From: Ulva prolifera
Taxonomy: Eukaryota; Chlorophyta; Ulvophyceae; Ulvales; Ulvaceae
DNA: 64,000 nucleotides
Direction of reading: 5' to 3'
Assembly: GCA_023078555.1 (NCBI GenBank)
Contig: CM041203.1
Location: forward strand, 205,481-269,480
Below are positions 23,367-37,171 of the stretch, in pieces. How positions within the stretch are numbered: the first letter of the stretch is position 1; every line of letters begins with the position of its first letter. The translations under genes were made by a program, and so were the position numbers. The notes beneath the pieces are model-generated. The model searched no databases. It was given only the letters and a program-made list of their open reading frames with translations, and was not told the origin of the DNA.

Positions 23367-24296
23367 GCGTGTAATGGGGGCCTTCTGTGTTGCTTCACAG
23401 CATCTGTTCGTCGTTCCACGTTGTCGATTGTGTTAATAAGCTGCTCGATGCAGGAGTACTGCTCCTGGTGTGTGTTTGGTCCACATGTCCGGTGCATAGC
23501 TGTGCCTCGCAGTCTGTTGGTGATGTGGAACATGTATAGAGTCGGCAATCTACTCGATGTCTGCTTTAGTTTGACCAAAGCAAATCGCGTACCACACTGA
23601 CACATCATTGTAGTGTGGCTATTCTTCTCTTTGCACGTAGAAGCGTAGATAGGTCACGAGATGCTGATGAGCCGTGCCTCAAGGGACAAATTCTCGAGCG
23701 TCAGGAAGAAAAGGACATCACAATGAATCTACATCATGGTGACTCGCAGTGAATGATAGAGCGTTAAGACAAAGCGAAGCATGTGAGTAATGTGGTATGT
23801 AAGGCCACAATCATTCTCACAGTGTTCAGCACGAGTTGGATCTGACAGGCTGGTAATTCATTGTATGTTTTAGATTCTTTTTGGAAAAGTGGCAGATCTC
23901 AAAGAAATTGTCGTATGATTATGCCCCAAACACCCGGTGAACATCAGCACAACTTGCTGAATGTTGTAACATCAATGCCTGACTGTCACATGTACACGAG
24001 AACATCCTGATCACTTAAAAGTGCAGGACATGTTGTGATTCCATATTCGAATATGCCTTGCATTATACTTGGCTACAGCTGAATGAGTCTGCCAAGAAAT
24101 ACAAGCGGACAGAGCTCATGAACAAGAGAAGGGATCAAAACAAGCTGGACTGCCACTTGTGCACTGGCACAGACATAAATTCAGGTACACGATGGCTTAC
24201 TGGCCTGAATCAGAGCAGTTCAACTCGCTGAGCGGCCAAGTTAGAATGTGTTGTTGATTGGTTGCAACACTTCCGATGATTGATGTTGAGATCAGT
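23367..24296. other. Intergenic, no gene seen
   Basis: This is the 3' flank of the PsbP-domain gene up to the edge of the left inverted-repeat arm. No frame above 86 codons and no recognisable motif. Confidence 0.5.
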
Positions 24297-24615
24297 GATG
24301 ATGCAAGTAGGTACCCTGACTGAATCAGCAGATTACACAGCGCAAACACTCATCTACCACGGCGTCACAGGGCTTTCCACAACTATGCGTTGTGGCAGCC
24401 AGCCAGTCACCGTCTGACATGCAAGCTCAGCTAGATCTTTCGGGGCCCGGCAGCGCCGCTTAGTAGTGGAAGACCTCGTCAGCCCACTGCAAACACGCAC
24501 ACAGCACAATCAGTGAGGGGCGCAGGAGCATTTGAGCATTTGAGCATTTGAAGCAATGCGCAGGCAGGGCACACTGGCAGTACTGTGGCGCACACAGACC
24601 TATGCAGCGGGCATG

Positions 24616-25578
24616 TCAGGCGGGGAATGGGAGACACACCGCATGTGCGCCAGAGCCGTAGGTGGTGTAGCCAGCCTTGCCGCCGTATCCGGTGTTGTCG
24701 GAATCGCCGTCCCTCTGGCAGCCCTCGATGGTGTACCATTCGGCGCCGGTCTCAGCGCCGACGACGGCCGCAGCTTCAGACTTGGCACAGCCAGTCTGGA
24801 GGAAGGACTTGGCGTAGGCCTCAGTCCAGATCTTGGCGTACGCAACGGCTGCGCACTTGGAGTACGCTGCTGCCCAGGCTGACGAGTCACCCTCGGAGCA
24901 GGCGTACACCTCGGAGCGGGAGAAGACGTCGACGGTCATCTCGATGAACGTGGACGCCTGGGCGACGGACAGCGCCCCGGTGTTGATCTTGCAGTCGGGG
25001 TACCGCTGCTGGCACGTGTCATATGCGCTGGCCACGGCATACGCGTGGGCCTCAGCCTTGGCCTCGGCCCAGGCCGCGGCGGTGGCAGTCGCGGAGGCGC
25101 AACCGAAGGCGTTGCCCTCAGTGACACAGTCAGCCTGGGTGGCGGTGACAGCCTTTGCAACTGCGCCGGCATAGGCTTCCGCGGAGTCGTGCACGTGCTT
25201 GATCTTGCCGTCCCAGTCAGGTTTGCAGAACTCCAGGATGGCGTACTTGGTGAACTCCTTGTGCGCGTCGATGCCCTCCTCGTACGCGTGCGCGGACGCA
25301 TAGCTTGAGCAGGTGGCTGAAGAGCTGGTGTAGCCTGGGGTCTTCACGAAGGCGTTCGTTGTGGAGTCAGCAGTATCATCATGCTTGTAGCCGTGGAAGT
25401 TGGAGAAGTGGTCATACACATCGCCCACGTAGCCGTGGTCCTGCTCCTCCTTCTCCTCGCCGTCAGAGTATGCAAAGTACTTGCTGGTGAAAAGCAGGTC
25501 TCGGCCGTTCTTTCCAGGCGTGGCCAACGCAGCAGTGCGCGTAGGGCCCATTGCGGCCCCAGCCACCATCATCGTCAC
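24616..25578 (-). CDS. Alanine/cysteine-rich secreted protein, left copy
   Basis: A single open exon of 320 codons. The first ATG (25578) gives MTMMVAGAAMGPTRTAALA. The frame continues upstream as IYAAGIV to a likely acceptor (GATGCAG), so a short upstream exon could supply the true start and complete a signal peptide. The mature part has about a dozen cysteines, many Tyr and Ala, and alternating stretches such as AAAWAEAKAEAHAYAVAS. It ends with GSGAHAVCLPFPA. I do not recognise the family; a cell-wall or extracellular role is only inference. Compared with the right copy (34472-35434) I find two base changes in the CDS: one synonymous (25492) and one Glu/Lys (25449). The gene points away from its partner, and a TATA box lies at 26205-26212. 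Confidence 0.8.
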   Translation of the reverse strand: MTMMVAGAAMGPTRTAALATPGKNGRDLLFTSKYFAYSDGEEKEEQDHGYVGDVYDHFSNFHGYKHDDTADSTTNAFVKTPGYTSSSATCSSYASAHAYEEGIDAHKEFTKYAILEFCKPDWDGKIKHVHDSAEAYAGAVAKAVTATQADCVTEGNAFGCASATATAAAWAEAKAEAHAYAVASAYDTCQQRYPDCKINTGALSVAQASTFIEMTVDVFSRSEVYACSEGDSSAWAAAYSKCAAVAYAKIWTEAYAKSFLQTGCAKSEAAAVVGAETGAEWYTIEGCQRDGDSDNTGYGGKAGYTTYGSGAHAVCLPFPA

Positions 25579-26204
25579 AATCCCGGCTGCGTAAATCCTG
25601 CATCACCTCGTGTTTGTCAGCCCATATGTCATATGCATGGCGTGCTGACCTGTCATGGCCAGGGACCAAGCAAACTCGGCCACACGCAGGTAATCACTAT
25701 TCATGAGCTCGATCGCCCCAGCGTGCACGTGTACGCAACACGTTGCGAACGAGTGAATTGGCTTCAGGCGTCATACGGGTCCCGGGCACCAGAGCTGTCA
25801 ATACATGTATATATGAATAGTATCGCTAGCGTATACGTCATCATCGATGTCGATATCATACATATGCATACATATATACTATCTCTAGATCTAGTGTAGA
25901 TACATCACATGTGATATCACATATGTACAGATGCAGCTAAAGATCAGTTGATCAATGCTCGGAGGTTCGCCCCGAGAGCTGGACAGATCTGCGATCCATG
26001 CAAGGATCGTGATGCCTAGGCAAGCTGTTAACAATTCATACGGCGAGACTCGGGCAGAAGGCGCACATTGTAAGCTCCAGGAGTGTACGGAAGTGTAGCA
26101 GGTGAGGTTCGGCAAGGGAAGCAAGATCTTGCTTTAGCGCTCTAGTACTACTAGTCGACGTACAGGGCTGGTGGAATTGTAGAATATTGCTAGCTGATCC
26201 TGGC

Positions 26205-26212
26205 CTTATATA
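26205..26212 (-). promoter_or_regulatory. TATA box of left secreted-protein gene
   Basis: On the minus strand this reads GGTATATAAGGCCAG. The same motif and flanks occur at 33820-33827 upstream of the right copy, although the surrounding leader has diverged. About 100 bp downstream both copies keep ATGTGCGCC. Confidence 0.7.
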
Positions 26213-26538
26213 CCTTCGCGGTCGTTCGCACACGACCAGACTTGGGTGCCTTGATCATCGCGTGTTGAACGGCTTCCATTGATATCGCAAGGGAGAGGAC
26301 TGTCGCTGCAAGGGGAGCTTCGAGATATCAGGAGCTTTTGCTTTGTAATGCGGTTTTGCAGGGACAGTGCCCGCTGTGCACAATGCGTAATGCACGCACG
26401 CGCCTCAGTTGGTAAGTAAGTTGGTACCGAGGCATTGGTATGCCGGTGGGCGTAGCCACATGGTGCATGCGCATGTGCGCAGTGGCATGCGTATCGGTAC
26501 CGGCTGGTATGTCGCGAAATACGCAACTTCTAAACGTT

Positions 26539-26593
26539 CACTGGCGAGTCGCCAGTGGCGACATCGCGCGTCATGTGCACGTGGCGCCACGTG
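26539..26593. repeat. Two adjacent perfect palindromes
   Basis: 26539-26557 is CACTGGCGA-G-TCGCCAGTG (9-bp arms, 1-bp loop). 26578-26593 is the perfect palindrome CACGTGGCGCCACGTG, which contains two CACGTG-like halves. They lie just outside the left arm homology. Confidence 0.85.
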
Positions 26594-26824
26594 GCGCGCG
26601 ATGGAGGCGCACCATCGGACGGCGCACCATGTGGATGCATCCTCCAATCAGTTCCTCCAATCATGCTGATCCGTTGGGCACAGCGATCCGAGCTGGAGCG
26701 CTCAGATCTATATGTTGGACTGGCACGAACGTAGTCGACTGGAACCTGAATTCAAGTCAAGCCGACGTAGGGGCAGGCGCCATGATGTAATGATCATGAT
26801 CAGGCTTGCAAGCTTGCAAGCTCA

Positions 26825-26910
26825 ATTGAGGCCTGTGGCCGAAATTTTAGTCTATCTCGGATGAGATTCTTTTGTGGTATTTGTCTTCTCCCGTTCACTC
26901 TTTTGTTACA
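26825..26910 (+). mobile_element. Solo 3' tail of non-LTR retrotransposon
   Basis: Reads ...GATGAGATTC, TATTTGTC, then TTCTCCCGTTCACTCTTTTG. This matches the tail after the stop codon of retrotransposon A (27,230-27,345, minus) and the tails near 33,500-33,645 and 34,060-34,115. No coding part precedes it. Confidence 0.6.
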
Positions 26911-26968
26911 TTACACTGCGTTGAGCGCATATGCATCTTGTAGATCTCTTTATGTTATAGAACAATAT

Positions 26969-26971
26969 ATA

Positions 26972-27017
<46 letters not shown>

Positions 27018-27046
27018 TGATATATATATATATATATCAATCACTG
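26969..27046. repeat. (TA)n tract ending in a cruciform-capable palindrome
   Basis: About 40 bp of (TA)n is followed by AGTGATTGATATATATATAT-type arms that close on ATATATCAATCACT. The palindrome spans 27013-27046. Confidence 0.85.
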
Positions 27047-27229
27047 AAGCAATCGACAACATATGTTTTAGTGGTGCCATGGTGCACCAGTGGTAATGTA
27101 CATGATATCATATGTCATCCTGCTTCTAGCTCCTCATGCGTTTTATTTCTAGCTCCTGATGCGTTTTGCACACGTCAAGCTTGTTGGCCTGGGCCGTACC
27201 ACACTGAGTCAACGTTGAGGGTTTGCAGG

Positions 27230-29490
27230 AAGTTACAAAATTTCGGAAGATCTCGTGAATGAACGGGAGAAGACAAACACCGCAGAATTCTTCGAACGAT
27301 CCCGTCCGAATCAACACACACGCGACTACACTGCAACCGCGCCCACACCTCAGTCTGGCAGCCTGAGGATTGCGTCCTCCAGGCCCGCATCATACCGCAA
27401 CCCTTGCTCCCGCGAGATGACAACTTGAAGCCCCGACTTCCGATACATCTCCGCATTGCCCCGCTGCAATGACACAGACAACAACCGCAGCGCCCTCTGG
27501 AAAAACGCGCCTTTAGAAATGCGCCCACTAGCTAGCAGCATGTCGCAGCCACATGCCCCAGCTGGCCGATGAACCGCACACTGGCAGCAGCCTTGCCCAT
27601 GAAGCCACACGACTTGACGGCCAACGGAACAAACCGGAACGCTGCATGGTCCGGCACGTCCCGCCGGAATTCTTCTCCTTAAGGGGTCCCGCTTCCTGTT
27701 CTCCGCCCGCTAGCGCTCCGAGCGTTCCGCCGTCGCGCCCGTCTCGCGTGCCGCAGCAGCCACATACGAGGCCGCCGGCGCCGGCGCATCCATGCCCACG
27801 GCGTCCACAGCAGCCATCACCAGGCGCGGCATGACCACGATGATGTCCCCGCGACGATTCAGCTGCACACCTGCGCCCCAAGCAAGGGCACGGTAGAGCG
27901 GCTCCGGTGCAGACTGCAGTCCGGTGTTAGAGGCGACCAGGCGCAAGGCATGAGCCTGGTTATCATGGCGCATCTGGGTCTCCTTTGCCACCTTTTTGCA
28001 GACCATGGCATGGTCCGGTTTGGTGGCAACACCTGCACTGCATTTGCACGGGCGGGCGCCGGGGGGGGGGGGGGGGGGGGGGGACTCTGTCGGTACGTGG
28101 AAACGCAGGCGGTGCCACACCGCCACGGTCAACATATGTCGTCGCCCAGGGTGAGAATGCCTGCCAGCAGAGCGGAGAGGAAGGCGCCCACTGGTCCCAC
28201 CGAAGCGCGCCTGAGCCACGCCGCTTCCTGCCTGCCGGCCGGCGTGTCGAGGCTGATGCCTAGGTATACAAGTGTAGGTGGAGCGCGGCCGCGTGGTCCA
28301 CGCACGCCCGCCCCACCTCACGCTGGGCCTCCAGCAGCTTGCCAGATCTGTCGACGCAAATGCGTCCGGCAGGTCGCGGGCGTCGGCCTCCCACCCCAGC
28401 AGCTCGTGCAATTCGTCAAACAATCCCTGCCAGTGCTGCAACAGGCTACCACGGCTGGGGCCAGGGAGGGGGAGGAGGAGGTCCGTGCGGCCGGCAAGGT
28501 TACGCTCGGCCATGCCGGCCCACGACAGGAAAGCTACATCGGCGATGCTGTCCACCAGCATTGGTAGGCCGAGCCTGCCATGGTGAACAGGGGACATCAG
28601 CCGCCAAGCTAGCCGCCGCGTCTCAGAGTCCGTGGCCGCGTTGTCAGACGCGGCTGCAGCCTTCGCGACCTCAGGCAGCAAGGACAGGAGTGCAGTTGCA
28701 TCGCGCCACATGGCGGCCTCCACCCTGCGCATATGTGGCTCGAGCACGGCATACGGTACCGTCCGCATCAGGTGCGTCGTGCGCACACTCACAGACACAC
28801 GCAGAAAGAGGAACTGAGCCTGCTCTGAGAGCGGGATTCGCACGAGGGTCTTGACGAGACCCTCAATCTCGCGCGTCCAGCACCTCGGGGACGTGCCCAG
28901 CGACGTGCGGACCGCCTTGAAGCCCGTGTGCAGATCCCGAATGCCGAGCCCCGCAGCCATAAAGGCCGCTGCCGCAGCGTCGGCGCTGTGGACGCCGCAT
29001 TTGACCGGGTTCACCTCCAGCCCAATGCTGCACGCCATCGGCGTCCACGCACAGCCACCGGAACACGGCCGCTCTGGCGGCAAGGTCGCCCGCGATGCTG
29101 ATGTCGTTCAGGTACGTCACCACAGGGCGCCGGCGTCTGGAGCGTCGACGCGCTCCAAGACAGGCTGCAGGGTCAATGCAAACAGGAGCTCCTAGGGGGC
29201 CAAGGGGATCACCATGGCGGATGCCGCGCTGGCAGAGACCCGGCTCAACGTCCTCCGGAGCACCGGCAATGTGCAGCGAGGTCCCCGCGCCGTACGCCCA
29301 CTGCGTGAAGGGCAGCAGTGCTGGGGCACGCTCCTTCACCGCAGCGAACATGGCCGCGTGGTCGATGCAGTTGAAGGCGTTCTTCATGTGGACAGAGAAC
29401 ACCGCGGAGCCCTCCACGAGAGCGGAGGACAGGCTGTGCACAACTGTTACAAGGATAAAGGCAAAATGCAGCATCAGCATCATGCATCAT
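27230..29490 (-). mobile_element. Non-LTR retrotransposon A, restriction-like-endonuclease type, 5'-truncated and decayed
   Basis: Frames at 29483-28863, 29083-27710, 27881-27528 and 27610-27350 overlap as one frame-shifted ORF. The reverse transcriptase part shows VHMKNAFNCID (first catalytic Asp position lost), GIRHGDPLGPL and VVTYLNDISIAG (YxDD changed to YLND), so the polymerase is dead. After a thumb/linker comes a zinc knuckle CKCSAG...DHAMVC, then RHD and RRGDIIVV. The end ASGRISKGAFFQRALRLLSV matches the end of element B. Zinc knuckle plus R-H-D/N and RGDI is the arrangement of site-specific, restriction-like-endonuclease non-LTR elements. Its 3' UTR ends in the CCCGTTCA tail. The 23-bp poly-G at 28061-28083 encodes polyproline on this strand. 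Confidence 0.8.
27350..29083 (-). pseudogene. Retrotransposon A polyprotein remnant (RT thumb to endonuclease)
   Basis: The 457-codon frame 29083-27710 carries the RT C-terminal region (VRTSLGTSPRCW, RRLAWRLMSPVHHGRLGLP), a polyproline run, the CKC...H...C knuckle, then RHDNQAHALRLVAS and LNRRGDIIVVMPRL. It stops early. The endonuclease continues in the other two frames down to 27350 (KEKNSGG, then YRKSG and LRYDAGLED). At least two frameshifts separate the RT from the C-terminus. It is not expressible as one protein. Confidence 0.75.
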
Positions 29491-31295
<1,805 letters not shown>

Positions 31296-31305
31296 CGGCG
31301 TGAGG

Positions 31306-33003
31306 TCATCGGACGCGACTGCCAGCCCCGTCAAAACTGCCTTGCCCGCATGGCGTGCCATCAGCGGCGCGCACCTGCCGAGCCACCGCGCGGCACAGCG
31401 TCGTGGACAGGTCGCGCATCGCATTCTCCAAGAACAGCCGCCGAGAAGCTGCGCCCGAACCTGCAGCAACGTCAGCAAGCCGGTTCAGGAAGGTGAATGC
31501 GGCCGGGCCGATCCTCCCGTCAGTCTTGTGAGAGAGTGGCACCAGGGTGAATGCGCCGGAGCCCGCCCGGCCATATTTGTCGCGCTTGCGCTGGTCGGAC
31601 TTCGCCGCGGCGGCGCCGGCACAGGTGGCCGCCGAGCGGACATTGGAGCCGTCCAGCGGGTGAGACACGCACACGTCGCCAATCACCGGCGAGCCGGGGA
31701 AGACCGCGAGAATGTCACCGTGCTGAGCGCCTCTGCGCGACCGGGGAGGAGGAACCGAAGGGGCACTTTGGACGGTGGCCGATCGCTGCGAACGCTGACC
31801 GGCCGCTGGAGGTTGCCAAGGGTCAGGGGCGTCATGCATGTGGGTCGCCGCCGCCGCCGGCGCCGGCGCCGCTGCTCCAGGCTCAGCCGGGGTGGGGGTC
31901 GGGACGGCGTCGGTGGCAGGTGCGACACCCGGGGCACACCTCGAGGCAGAGACAGCAGCTGCGTACGTGACAGGAGGCGGAGCCTGGGTGCCGTGGGAGG
32001 GAGGAGCGGGCGCGTCCGAGGAAGGGGAGGTGTCGGAGATAGGCTGAGCTGTTGCACGGAGAGCTGGCCAGGGGTCGACCGCGGAGTGGGCGCGGGGCGA
32101 GTGCGCGCGGAGGGCAGCGGCGCCGAGGACGGCTGCGCCGAGGACCGCGGCATCGGCGGCGGCAGTGCATGCGGGAGCAGCCGCAGGGAAGATGGCGGGC
32201 AGAGCCTGAGCGCCATGAGAGGTTGCGGGCGCGGCCGAGGCCTGGGCGGGTGAGGGTTCAGTGGAGGGTGACGTGCGGGGTGCTGCCGGGCGTGCTGGGA
32301 GGCCACGGCCGAGGCCTTGCGGGAGCCTGCTCAGGTGCGGTTCCACCGCAGAAGCGATGCCGCTGCGCGCGATGACGCGGCGCCACGCCTCCGCGAGCAG
32401 GTTGTGGCGGGCGACTACAGTCCCCCACAGCGACTTGCAGACCAAGGAGTGGGTGCCGGACTCCCCGCTGCGGCCACAGGGGCAGTCACCATCGTCGCTC
32501 AGGCTACGCAGCAGGGCCTCACCCAGCCTCAGATGGGCGCACACGCCGAACTCCATGTCGGACAGGCCCGTGACGGGGCCCGGGAGCGCCGTGAGCCATG
32601 CCAACGCGATCGCGCCCATGCAGCTGCGCAGGCGGGCCATCGCCTCACGAGCCCCTGCTGCAATCTGGGCGGAGCGGCCGTTAGTGGCTGTGAGTAGCGC
32701 CTGGGAGACTGCAGATTTGCGCGCGTTGGCTTCGGCCCGGGCGCTCTGCAGTTGGGTCTCACTTTTGCCGATTCGTCAACTGCCCAGTTTGCCGCGCCTG
32801 CGGGACTGTTGGCGATCTCGGGGATGGAGACACTCCACGTCAGACGAAGTCTGTCGAGCACCTGTTGCATCTCGACGGCTGCGCAGCCCCGGAACGGCAG
32901 GCCGCGCTCGACACCGTCGGCGAGGGCGCATTAATTGAGCCAGCGCCGCGGATGACAAGCGTGCCGCATCCGCGACGTCCTCGCAGTAGTGCCGGAGCCC
33001 CAC
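31306..33003 (-). mobile_element. Non-LTR retrotransposon B, C-terminal part with restriction-like endonuclease
   Basis: A 444-codon open frame (32640-31306), preceded by a broken frame to about 33,003 (MGLRHYCEDVADAARL). The frame shows WLTALPGPVTGLSDMEFGV, a CCHC knuckle (CPCGRSG...THSLVC), ARHNLLAEAWRRVIARSG, a ~140-residue Pro/Ala-rich insert, then GDILAVFPGSPVIGDVCVSH, KRDKYGRAGSGAFTLVPLSH, TDGRIGPAAF and ASRRLFLENAMRDLS. R-H-N, G-D-I, D and K-Y match the core of the restriction-like endonuclease found at the C-terminus of R2/NeSL/Utopia-type elements. The domain looks intact; RT and upstream parts are missing. The clade is inference. The 3' end abuts the (GT)n tract. Confidence 0.75.
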
Positions 33004-33499
33004 TGTGTGTGTGGGTGTGTGTAGTGTGTGCGTGCGTGCATTTATGCCGCGTGCATTTATGCCGCCGTGATGTGCTTATGACGTGCTGCAAGGCGCACAG
33101 CTCGCCACATGGTATACGTATCCGTGAGATACCATCGTAGTACGCAGACATATCTGATCACGTGTGCTTGATTTGTGAAAAGCCGATGTAATGGCTGTTG
33201 ACGTTTGACTGGCGCTTTGGAGAGTATGCGTGGGAATTCTACCAGAGAATACTCTGCAGAATACTCTGCATGAGAATACCATATATATAGATCTATCCAT
33301 CTAGATCTAGATGCATCTATAGCGACGTAGCCAGCGCAGCATTACAGAAGGTTGAACGGGCGCAGACAAACACAGCAAAAGTATCTCTTCTGAACCAACA
33401 GTGGTAGCCATGCGCAATGGAACCAATGCGTACATGCAGGCCTTGCCCAGCCGTTCCGCGTGGCTCGCTGTCCCAGCACCGAAAACACAACGGACTTCG
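33004..33499. other. Spacer with short TG/GC repeats
   Basis: Contains an imperfect TG repeat (33,003-33,040) and a duplicated TGCATTTATGCCGC unit (33,038-33,065), then AT-rich sequence with GATCTAGAT-type palindromes near 33,290-33,320. No gene seen. Confidence 0.5.
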
Positions 33500-33644
33500 A
33501 ATCGGGCCTGGAGGATCCTCGCTCCGCGTCGACGCGATCCTGCCGGACTGAGGTGTGAGTGTGGTTGTAGTGTGTGTGTTGATGTTGATTCAGATGAGAT
33601 TCGGTTTCAGTGTTTGTTTTCTCCCGTTCACTCTTTTGTAATAC
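33500..33644 (+). mobile_element. Solo 3' tail of retrotransposon A family, at the edge of the right arm
   Basis: Matches the last codons and 3' UTR of retrotransposon A in reverse complement: GGGCCTGGAGGA, GACTGAGGTGTG, TGTGTTGAT, GTGTTTGT, then CTCCCGTTCACTCTTTTGTA. Homology to the left arm begins right after it (33,645), so the insertion marks the break of the repeat. Confidence 0.65.
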
Positions 33645-33819
33645 TAAAGGCGCGTGCGTGCATTACGCATTGTGCACAGCGGGCACGGTCCCTGCGCAAC
33701 CGCATTACGAAGCAAGAACTCCTGATATTTCGCAGGCTATCTTGTAGCCAAAGCCTGCTGTCTTGCACTGAGTTCCGCAAAGCACGATGGTCAGCGTGTG
33801 TAGGCACAATCTCGCAAGG

Positions 33820-33827
33820 TATATAAG
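33820..33827 (+). promoter_or_regulatory. TATA box of right secreted-protein gene
   Basis: AAGGTATATAAGGCCAG, the same as upstream of the left copy. It lies ~650 bp ahead of the main coding exon, with ATGTGCGCC about 105 bp downstream. This suggests a 5' leader exon and intron in both copies; donor positions (GTGTAG here, GTATGA on the left) are not in the same phase, so I do not assign a first coding exon. Confidence 0.7.
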
Positions 33828-34059
33828 GCCAGCACAGGCAGAATTCTATACTTTTGACAGCCCGTCGAATCTTGCTACTCCGTTGAACTTCACCAGCTGC
33901 TCTTCTGTACACTCCTCGAGTTGAAAATGTGCGCCTCCGGAGGGTCCTGCCTCACTCGCCGTGTAGCGGGACGAACGGCCGTCAACGTCGTGACCGGGCA
34001 GCACGATAGTTCTGGTGCACGCATGAATGTCAAGGCTGAGTGTGAAGCTGCTTCATAAG

Positions 34060-34115
34060 ATATCGTTGTGATGTTCTTGTTTGAGCCCGTTCACTCTTCT
34101 GTAATGTATAGATGC
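34060..34115 (+). mobile_element. Retrotransposon tail inside the leader of the right gene copy
   Basis: TGATGTTCTTGTTTGAG, then CCCGTTCACTCTTCTGTAAT, matching the other tails. The left copy has no such sequence between promoter and coding exon, so it arose after the arms separated or was lost on the left. Confidence 0.5.
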
Positions 34116-34471
34116 CTATCGAGCTGGATGGGCGAACCTGCATGCATGATATGCATGCATGATTCGCGAATATCTCAGTGCCAGTGCAAGCTGTAGCCTA
34201 CCACAGCGCTGGTGAAGGCTGATACGTGATGTTTTGATTCGTTTGCCGATTTTTTGTTGTTGTGTCAGGCCACTACACTGTTTTTTAACGTGCTACATAT
34301 AGTGCAGCGTTTTGGTGTTTGCAAATGAACTCCATTGAAGGCCACTAGTGCATACATGTGACTCCGCACCTTCGTGTGGCCGAGTTTGCTTGGTCCCTGG
34401 CCATGACAGGTCAGCACGCCATGCATGGGCTGACAAACACGAGGTGATGCAGGATTTACGCAGCCGGGATT

Positions 34472-35434
34472 GTGACGATGATGGTGGCTGGGGCCGCAAT
34501 GGGCCCTACGCGCACTGCTGCGTTGGCCACGCCTGGAAAGAACGGCCGAGACCTGCTGTTCACCAGCAAGTACTTTGCATACTCTGACGGCGAGGAGAAG
34601 AAGGAGCAGGACCACGGCTACGTGGGCGATGTGTATGACCACTTCTCCAACTTCCACGGCTACAAGCATGATGATACTGCTGACTCCACAACGAACGCCT
34701 TCGTGAAGACCCCAGGCTACACCAGCTCTTCAGCCACCTGCTCAAGCTATGCGTCCGCGCACGCGTACGAGGAGGGCATCGACGCGCACAAGGAGTTCAC
34801 CAAGTACGCCATCCTGGAGTTCTGCAAACCTGACTGGGACGGCAAGATCAAGCACGTGCACGACTCCGCGGAAGCCTATGCCGGCGCAGTTGCAAAGGCT
34901 GTCACCGCCACCCAGGCTGACTGTGTCACTGAGGGCAACGCCTTCGGTTGCGCCTCCGCGACTGCCACCGCCGCGGCCTGGGCCGAGGCCAAGGCTGAGG
35001 CCCACGCGTATGCCGTGGCCAGCGCATATGACACGTGCCAGCAGCGGTACCCCGACTGCAAGATCAACACCGGGGCGCTGTCCGTCGCCCAGGCGTCCAC
35101 GTTCATCGAGATGACCGTCGACGTCTTCTCCCGCTCCGAGGTGTACGCCTGCTCCGAGGGTGACTCGTCAGCCTGGGCAGCAGCGTACTCCAAGTGCGCA
35201 GCCGTTGCGTACGCCAAGATCTGGACTGAGGCCTACGCCAAGTCCTTCCTCCAGACTGGCTGTGCCAAGTCTGAAGCTGCGGCCGTCGTCGGCGCTGAGA
35301 CCGGCGCCGAATGGTACACCATCGAGGGCTGCCAGAGGGACGGCGATTCCGACAACACCGGATACGGCGGCAAGGCTGGCTACACCACCTACGGCTCTGG
35401 CGCACATGCGGTGTGTCTCCCATTCCCCGCCTGA
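34472..35434 (+). CDS. Alanine/cysteine-rich secreted protein, right copy
   Basis: Open frame of 320 codons, the inverted twin of 24616-25578. Differences seen are 34601 (GAGAAGAAG here, Lys in place of Glu) and 34558 (CTG/CTT, silent). All other residues are the same, including NGRDLLFTSKYFAYSDGE near residue 23, the Ala-alternating region around residues 165-190, and the C-terminal AHAVCLPFPA. As in the left copy, the frame is open upstream through YAAGIV to a GATGCAG acceptor, so an upstream start exon is possible. The hydrophobic N-terminus suggests secretion; function unknown. Its promoter region differs from the left copy and carries an inserted retrotransposon tail, so expression may differ. 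Confidence 0.8.
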   Translation: MTMMVAGAAMGPTRTAALATPGKNGRDLLFTSKYFAYSDGEEKKEQDHGYVGDVYDHFSNFHGYKHDDTADSTTNAFVKTPGYTSSSATCSSYASAHAYEEGIDAHKEFTKYAILEFCKPDWDGKIKHVHDSAEAYAGAVAKAVTATQADCVTEGNAFGCASATATAAAWAEAKAEAHAYAVASAYDTCQQRYPDCKINTGALSVAQASTFIEMTVDVFSRSEVYACSEGDSSAWAAAYSKCAAVAYAKIWTEAYAKSFLQTGCAKSEAAAVVGAETGAEWYTIEGCQRDGDSDNTGYGGKAGYTTYGSGAHAVCLPFPA

Positions 35435-35745
35435 CATGCCCGCTGCATAGGTCTGTGTGCGCCATAGTACTGCCAGTGTGCCCTGCCTGCGCATTGCTTC
35501 AAATGCTCAAATGCTCCTGCGCCCCTCACTGATTGTGCTGTGTGCGTGTTTGCAGTGGGCTGACGAGGTCTTCCATTACTAAGCGGCGCTGCCAGGCCCC
35601 GAAAGATCTAGCTGAGCTTGTACGTCAGACGGTGATAGGCTGGCCGCCACAACGCGTAGTTGTGGCAAGCTCTGTGACGCCGTGGTAGATGAGTACTTGC
35701 GCTGTGTAATCTGCTGATTCAGTCAGCGCACCTACTTGCATGATC

Positions 35746-37171
35746 ATGTCATTAAAGAAATGTTCAGCTTGGCTTAGTTCTTCCCAGCATGGAGGTAATG
35801 TGTCACAATCAGCAGACCATGTGCCACAAGAGGCAGAATTCACGGAATGAAGCGCATGAGAATACAACACCATGAAGGCTCATCGAACTCGGTCCCCAAT
35901 GCAGAACCACTGAAGACACTGCATTCAACTTGAACTTTGAGCAGACAAACCCTGCCCCTGCACGCACAAACACCCACAAACCCACACCATCCACAAAACT
36001 ACCCACACACGTGTAGTTGCCGACACACGCGCACCAGTTAATTTGCACCAATGTACTTCAAGCACCTCTTGGTGGGGCGTTATTGTATCATGCTGGTTGG
36101 GACGAACCAGTCACAATGCCCAGTGCATGTGGAAGCACCAGATGCAGAACAGCAAACGACTGAACTGAAGAGGCTTGTGCGGCTGCAGCCCAACTTTGTA
36201 TAGTACACAACTCAGCCCTGTCATGCTGGCAAGCTTGATGCAGAGCACCCCGCACAGAGCACCCCACTTTGGTCGGTGTGCAGCGAGTAGGCTACCTGTT
36301 TTAGAACCAATGAATGCCAGGCTGATGGTGTCCTGTTGCACAATCTTACATGCTAACTTGTTACTAAGGTGATCACGGCTTGTCAACTGCTATGAATGTA
36401 GAGGCACTGTTACCGATCTGCTTCAGAGCACATGAGTGTTGCATGATGCATGCGCAAACTGTTCACTGAGGCATGTATGGTTTTGATACTTGTCATGCAA
36501 TATCCACTGGAAAGGTGGTGTTGGTGTGCATGTGGTACCGCGATTTCATGTGACAATGATCAGCAAAATGACCCGGTGTTCACCTGATGTACAAACGTTT
36601 GGGGCGTAAAAGCGTCAAACACTGAAATGGTAGCCACCTTGAGATCAGCTTGTTGTAGTAGACATGGTTCATCAGCCTTTCAGTTCCAATTTGTACGGCA
36701 GCACTTACAAAAACTCATGTTTATCCAATGGAAGCCAGTGACATGATAATTTGCCCCTGAATTGTCTCAGATTTCATGGGGCATTTCACAGATGGTAAAA
36801 GAGCAATTGAGCTTGACCAGGGCCTTCACAGCAGACATTGCCTCCGTTCCTTCCACACTACCAAATGCAATAATAATGTCCTTCACTCTCAGCATCAATC
36901 GATGTGGGGTGGGGTCAGCATAGGTGATCACACGCAGTCCGGTTCATTCACTGTCACATACATCGGAATTTGGCGCACGCTGTCCATGCTTCAGCGAATA
37001 CTGCAGAATATGAGATCGTAAAAGCAATACATATGGCATGAACACCATTGACGAAGATTAAGGGTGAAAGCATGCTGCACAGTGCATCATCGCTTCTGCA
37101 AATATTAACATACTGACACATGGAACGCAGCATGTTCTTGGTGCGTCGCTTCGTTTCTGCTCCTATGATAC
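35746..37171. other. Intergenic, no supported gene
   Basis: Contains a CCCACA-rich stretch (35,950-36,015) and short frames on both strands without recognisable motifs. It holds the 3' flank of the right-arm gene and of the rhodanese gene. Confidence 0.5.

Follow-up and report, generated by a model that had tools for sequence, protein, structure and literature searches.

The window analyzed here is a stretch of 64,000 nucleotides from the green alga Ulva prolifera (contig C8:205481-269480). Gene A (minus strand) and gene B (plus strand), which point away from each other, lie within it. Each carries a 963-bp open reading frame (ORF), at positions 24616-25578 in copy A and 34472-35434 in copy B. 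In the predicted gene model, each ORF lies within a second exon that runs from the G of a split start codon to the stop: 24616-25597 (minus strand) in copy A, where the acceptor CAG|G, the frame, and the stop were verified, and 34453-35434 (plus strand) in copy B. Joined to an AT at 26067-26068 and 33927-33928, respectively, these exons encode proteins of 327 amino acids that differ from each other in a single residue. The putative intron 1, which would split the start codon as AT|G and has the family-wide form GTGCG...GCAG, occupies 25598-26066 in copy A (469 nt, minus strand) and 33929-34452 in copy B (524 nt, plus strand). Farther upstream, each copy has a TATA box, TATATAAG (A, 26205-26212, minus strand; B, 33820-33827, plus strand), and a conserved block (A, 26318-26405, minus strand; B, 33648-33735, plus strand). 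A protein search of the genome (88.9 Mb in 44 contigs) matched copy A exon 2 to the family with an E value of 2e-212. In all, there were 78 matches, spread over nine contigs (C1 to C9), and some of these matches are the second exon of a gene already counted; loci of this family are denoted below by L numbers.

Genes A and B are nearly identical over a block of ~1.2 kb that ends abruptly. The inverted arms at 24534-25625 and 34425-35516 (1,092 nt, 8.8 kb apart) were scored as 100% complementary, and a gapped local alignment paired 24296-25691 with 34368-35746 at 97.4% identity. As an earlier note on this DNA had stated, these two inverted genes differ at only 2 of the 963 bases of the coding sequence (CDS): a silent difference in codon 29 (CTT/CTG) and an E-to-K difference in codon 44 (GAG/AAG). 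Section by section, we counted 1 substitution in 82 nt and a 9-bp indel in the intron end, 2 substitutions in 981 nt in exon 2, and 1 substitution in 136 nt in the near 3' untranslated region (UTR), together with an 8-bp indel inside an 8-bp tandem repeat. The far 3' UTR has 15 substitutions in 176 nt, and its identity of 91.5% agrees with the 91 to 92% that the note had given for the 3' flank. The near-identical sections and the far 3' UTR (4/1,199 versus 15/176) differ with a Fisher P value of 5.7e-11. In a two-rate model, the best single break fell at position 35576 on the B side, with 4 substitutions in 1,208 positions before it and 15 in 171 after it, a log-likelihood gain of 22.6 that none of 2,000 permutations reached (permutation maximum, 10.5). 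Two indels lie in the near-identical block, and the longest run without a substitution is 863 nt. The change in divergence on the 3' side is a step, not a slope; the uniform divergence along the arms that the earlier note had named as the outcome speaking against gene conversion was not seen in the base-by-base alignment. Beyond the step lies an older homologous 3' UTR, at 35576-35746 (plus strand) in copy B and 24296-24466 (minus strand) in copy A, with a TGTAA signal, typical of green algae, at 35705-35709 and 24333-24337, respectively. Homology between the copies ends at 24296/35746, ~37 nt beyond this signal. Such signals point to a green-algal genome, as do proteins that exceed the Pfam cutoff for chlorophyll a/b binding; for one of these, the most similar PDB chains are light-harvesting proteins from plants and algae, several of them green algal.

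On the other side of exon 2, the putative intron 1 of copy B aligns with that of copy A only at its first few bases and its last ~80 nt. Homology is again detectable in a patch around the end of exon 1 (71 aligned columns, 78.9% identical) and in the 88-bp conserved upstream block (90.9% identical), of which no third copy was found in the genome. The gene model AT|GTGCG...GCAG|G gives a consistent frame in both copies, and the predicted proteins start with MIYAAGIVTMMVAGAAMG, an N terminus that, judged by eye, reads like a signal peptide; they are probably secreted. The donor motif occurs in the upstream range of 23 of 24 distinct family loci (L020 lacks it) against 5.2 expected by chance, a comparison that is descriptive only because the motif and the search range were picked after some loci had been viewed. 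A longer coding exon 1, tried by hand, was dropped: the reading phases of A and B disagreed. The earlier note had described the leader as only partly alignable and the promoters as diverged, and each description captures part of what we found. The leader does contain conserved patches, but its main unalignable portion appears to be the intron that splits the start codon (26066-26068 and 33927-33929). Likewise, the intron has diverged and the promoter is conserved only in patches, but the TATA boxes match. Because of these matching boxes, and because the upstream block and the exon-1 patch are 79 to 91% alike, the promoters appear to be homologous though eroded. An unalignable intron, flanked by promoter and exon-1 patches that are homologous but diverged, points to a duplication of A and B that is old and covered the whole gene.

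The large groups of the family lie on C1, C2, and C3. Many members have a (Gly-Asp/Asn-Glu)n stretch, absent from the window pair, between a signal-like N terminus and a Cys domain that contains the AFGCASA motif and matched none of the libraries searched. In a tree of 46 rows, the window pair clustered with the C1 genes (99/95 support); its branch is long, and the pair was flagged for this and for odd composition. An intron after residue ~254 is present in most C2, C4, C5, and C7 members and absent from the C8, C1, and C3-array genes. No match for the window protein was found in Pfam or NCBIfam, a search of solved structures with E values up to 1 returned 0 chains for it, and no relatives outside the genome appeared in one viral-contig scan with the window protein or in one genome-contig scan with alignment A1. 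Four of six scanned paralogues (L020, L011, L024, and L019) exceeded the Pfam cutoff for the collagen family PF01391 in the (Gly-Asp/Asn-Glu)n region. Since the repeat runs in the translations read are almost free of proline, this match may be compositional; the window pair is without the repeat, and copy A hit 0 Pfam families.

Near identity that covers the coding exon and stops upstream of it recurs in other members. L020 and L021 (C3, direct orientation, 12.9 kb apart) are 99.9% identical over 1,121 bp from the exon-2 acceptor, with downstream homology that goes on at 98 to 99.6% past an insertion in L021; no homology was detectable in 620 nt upstream. Comparison with L022 revealed a conflict of site patterns at the acceptor. 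The row of 100 columns that immediately precedes it has 38 sites joining L020 with L022 and 3 joining L020 with L021. Over the 11 rows that begin at the acceptor and end at L020 position 2326 (a count that leaves out two rows beyond this position, past the coding part), 54 sites join L020 with L021, 5 join L020 with L022, and 1 joins L021 with L022, and all 5 of the L020-L022 sites fall in the row straddling the acceptor. This conflict reads as a recombinant junction. L072 and L074 (C2, inverted, ~45 kb apart) have a synonymous divergence (dS) of 0.025 and a nonsynonymous divergence (dN) of 0; their identity begins ~60 nt upstream of the acceptor, and 64 of 480 upstream nt are alignable. L018 is 92.5 to 93.2% identical to other C1 genes over a 690-bp part of the exon and 94.0 to 96.5% identical over 200 to 221 aligned nt of the CDS end and 3' UTR, with nothing alignable upstream. 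Its sequence joins that of the C1 genes at the start of the Gly-Asp/Asn-Glu repeat, and its signal-peptide region differs; this junction suggests that exchange may also occur within the repeat. A weaker case is provided by inter-contig pairs of C2 and C4, L069 with L062, L063, and L067, which have dS values of 0.26 to 0.30 and no alignable upstream DNA. The inverted setting stressed by the earlier note thus holds for the window pair, but the pattern is not confined to inverted copies, as L020 and L021 are direct.

We surveyed pairs among 42 loci (of 50 entered, 3 duplicates were dropped, as were L038, L060, L073, L075, and L077, which lack a recognized acceptor) and obtained 80 pairs with dS below 0.45. 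Ten pairs had dS below 0.1. In seven of these, 50% or more of the upstream DNA was alignable; in the other three, less than 20% was, namely, in the window pair, L020/L021, and L072/L074. At dS values of 0.1 to 0.3, there were 31 pairs, with less than 20% of the upstream DNA alignable in 26, 20 to 50% in 3, and at least 50% in 2. The acceptor of L029 was placed 120 nt too far upstream (1139 versus 1259), an error that carries over to the L029 pairs, none of which is among these 31.

We consider it very probable that gene conversion of a coding block of ~1.2 kb between old inverted copies, a textbook mechanism for duplicates, best explains the window pair. The earlier note had proposed conversion between the inverted copies, and both the step in divergence and the silent-site controls given below support the proposal. 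An old inverted duplication would have taken in the promoter, first intron, coding exon, and 3' UTR, and the two copies would then have diverged. Subsequently, ectopic (nonallelic) homologous recombination would have copied ~1.2 kb from one gene to the other. The most recent tract would span 34373-35575 on the B side (plus strand) and 24467-25686 on the A side (minus strand), comprising ~80 nt of the intron end, all of exon 2, and ~140 nt of 3' UTR. Three observations bear the marks of such a tract: divergence steps abruptly within a homologous segment; silent sites match as closely as replacement sites do, more than selection at the level of the family accounts for; and older homology persists outside the block, in the upstream block, the exon-1 patch, and the far 3' UTR. 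The latter region may mark an older event. Since the block contains ~80 nt of intron sequence, the template was probably DNA rather than cDNA, and the exchange was probably nonreciprocal, since crossing over between inverted copies would invert the spacer without homogenizing the arms. The tract edges lie at or near the points where homology would have run out, upstream in the intron, which fits a recombination process that needs homology. The same process may recur in the family wherever enough homology remains.

Alternatively, a recent partial duplication could have placed a fresh copy of exon 2 and the 3' UTR beside an unrelated promoter. Such an event would account for the abrupt end of homology on the 3' side and for the upstream parts of L020 and L021, which have no detectable homology. 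For the window pair, however, we rejected it, because the upstream block and the exon-1 boundary are homologous and in order. The upstream block is found in no third place, indicating that both genes already existed, and the 3' UTR shows two levels of divergence. A recent partial duplication is therefore very unlikely.

The near identity could also have been maintained by strong purifying selection on the protein together with codon usage or RNA, which would have frozen the coding exon of old duplicates. Constraint on the family protein is indeed strong, with dN/dS of ~0.01 to 0.14 in nearly all close family pairs (L028/L029, 0.34; up to ~0.4 in the 42-locus survey), and third codon positions are GC rich, the GC content at these positions (GC3) being 0.80 in the window gene. 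Silent sites, however, are free to change. The window gene and its C1 paralogue L011 differ at 50 of 73 comparable 4-fold sites. Seven family pairs whose dS exceeds 0.26 and whose upstream DNA aligns over 250 nt or more have dS values of 0.27 to 0.39 and upstream divergence (K) of 0.17 to 0.28; K was taken on the alignable part only and is thus biased low, and the comparison from which these pairs come included the near-exact C1 copies L012, L014, and L017, which were dropped from the 42-locus survey. As dS is not below upstream K in these alignable pairs, silent sites do not evolve slowly in the family. In the A/B comparison, we observed 1 silent change in 223.7 silent sites, against 19.1 expected at the rate of the far 3' UTR (Poisson P = 1e-7). 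With silent sites free in the family and so few changes between A and B, selection alone is rejected as the cause, and the near-identical block also takes in the intron end and part of the 3' UTR. The earlier note had rated selection reaching to silent sites as the less likely reading; the 4-fold differences and the seven pairs contradict it, and we regard it as highly improbable.

A further alternative is that the template for conversion was a reverse-transcribed mRNA, produced perhaps by way of retrotransposons, that recombined with the gene. Homology in the window pair and in the C1 comparisons stops ~12 to 37 nt past TGTAA, near the transcript end; the homology in the C2 group, mostly 880 to 900 bp, begins within ~20 nt of the acceptor; and the absence of the intron after residue ~254 from the C8, C1, and C3-array genes would also be in keeping with a cDNA. 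Against this stand the intron 1 sequence inside the window tract, the start of L072/L074 identity upstream of the acceptor, and the L020/L021 homology that extends downstream. Moreover, conversion from DNA, limited by the remaining homology, predicts the same edges. We therefore give a cDNA template very little probability. Finally, an assembly or polishing artifact that collapsed one exon onto the other is extremely improbable despite a suspicious block elsewhere in the assembly (the parts compared from the first 20.8 kb of C1 duplicate C1:1252241-1273051 at 99.8 to 100%). A single contig carries the two copies, 8.8 kb from each other; their introns and flanks are distinct; the block retains 4 substitutions and 2 indels; and at a true divergence of 8 to 9%, reads should map uniquely, with no homogenizing over 1.2 kb.

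Several points weigh against gene conversion as the explanation. L013 and L016 in the C1 array show the reverse pattern, a dS of 0.053 with an upstream K of 0.002. The genome yielded no further gene closely related to the window pair. Fast turnover of introns and promoters by indels and insertions may exaggerate the contrast between exon and upstream DNA, and upstream K is measurable for alignable DNA alone. In C2, identity that is limited to the exon and has its edges near splice sites could be due partly to selection combined with fast intron turnover. Because the surveyed pairs have loci in common, they are not independent. Of four groups examined with a GENECONV-like test, two had significant mosaic runs in the Cys domain, namely, the C2 group (best P = 0.003) and C3 array A (best P = 0.001), and the other two had none there; adding the rest of exon 2 raised the number to three of four. 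Such runs can also arise when rates vary along the exon.

In concerted evolution, repeated exchange keeps the divergence of gene pairs and families low (PMC2720389 and PMC3924837). What sets the algal family apart from concerted evolution in general is its boundary, at or near an intron that apparently splits the start codon. Among specific systems, there is a close likeness in gene layout and similarity pattern, with no protein relationship implied, to the Sp185/333 immune genes of the purple sea urchin, for which gene conversion is among the mechanisms proposed (PMC3091723). These are many short, clustered two-exon genes whose similarity is highest on the gene and its near flanks and lower beyond. 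In that system, microsatellites bound a conserved unit that takes in the near flanks, whereas in the algal family the part with the highest similarity begins at exon 2 or slightly before it, and promoters and introns vary from locus to locus. The human Y palindrome P6 consists of inverted copies held nearly identical by arm-to-arm gene conversion, as is probable for the block in the window pair, and tracts are of kilobase scale in both (mean minimum tract of 2,068 bp in P6 [PMC3723533]; ~1.2 kb in the alga). The window pair differs in that the coding block alone is nearly identical, within an old and largely eroded inverted duplication. It lacks the long, uniformly near-identical arms of a Y-type palindrome.

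The position of intron 1 suggests a further, doubtful possibility, that the family consists of promoters and a portable ORF, with one coding block copied behind many locus-specific promoters. Exon 1 would contribute only AT, and the acceptor exon would carry the rest of the ORF start. Recombination with its endpoint at any position within intron 1, or at the border of exon 2, would then still yield a working gene with its frame intact. If so, the alga would in effect maintain a range of expression contexts and exchange a small set of secreted proteins among them. Gene conversion is mentioned in papers on green algae (PMC8226300 and PMC12633428), and a literature search of titles and abstract openings found nothing on this family or on such a pattern in any green alga. 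Both the family and its architecture with a split start codon thus appear to be undescribed. With coding exons that look homogenized or exchanged and promoters and first introns that do not, the family is well suited to testing how conversion tracts are limited by homology and whether a start-codon-splitting intron helps to share coding sequence across promoters.

The spacer between genes A and B contains two dispersed repeats. The first, at 27257-29447 (minus strand), is retrotransposon-like by reading of its ORF, without a Pfam match, and its scored genomic copies are mostly 79 to 87% identical, many of them partial. The second, at 31400-33002 (no strand assigned), has scored copies that are 77 to 92% identical; the query began at 31400, and the true start may lie farther to the left. 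A GT run of 140 dinucleotides (281 bp, 99% matches) occupies 31013-31293. Any role of the dispersed repeats and the GT run in exchange is speculation. A second duplicated gene in the spacer was considered and rejected, as the spacer ORFs fall within the dispersed repeats.

Outside the window, the start of C1 carries L052 and L053 (C1:1-2400 and C1:19702-20810), which are direct 99.8% copies of L055 and L054 (C1:1252241-1254640 and C1:1271943-1273051), 1.25 Mb away. The intervening loci L011/L012, L016/L017, and L014/L015 match at 99.8 to 100%, the comparison covering these parts only. Approximately 100 N follow the block, and its first 2.4 kb contain no TTTAGGG repeats; the block is possibly a misplaced haplotig. 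L023 (C3:1639579-1640379), which is 94 to 96% like L020 to L022 over the 690-bp exon part, has an in-frame TAG and is possibly a pseudogene. The insertion in L021 that is absent from L020 spans ~275 bp (L021:2355-2630), contains GGTTCGATTC, and ends in TTTACTTTAC; by eye, GGTTCGATTC resembles a box B, and the insertion as a whole has the look of a tRNA-derived short interspersed nuclear element (SINE).

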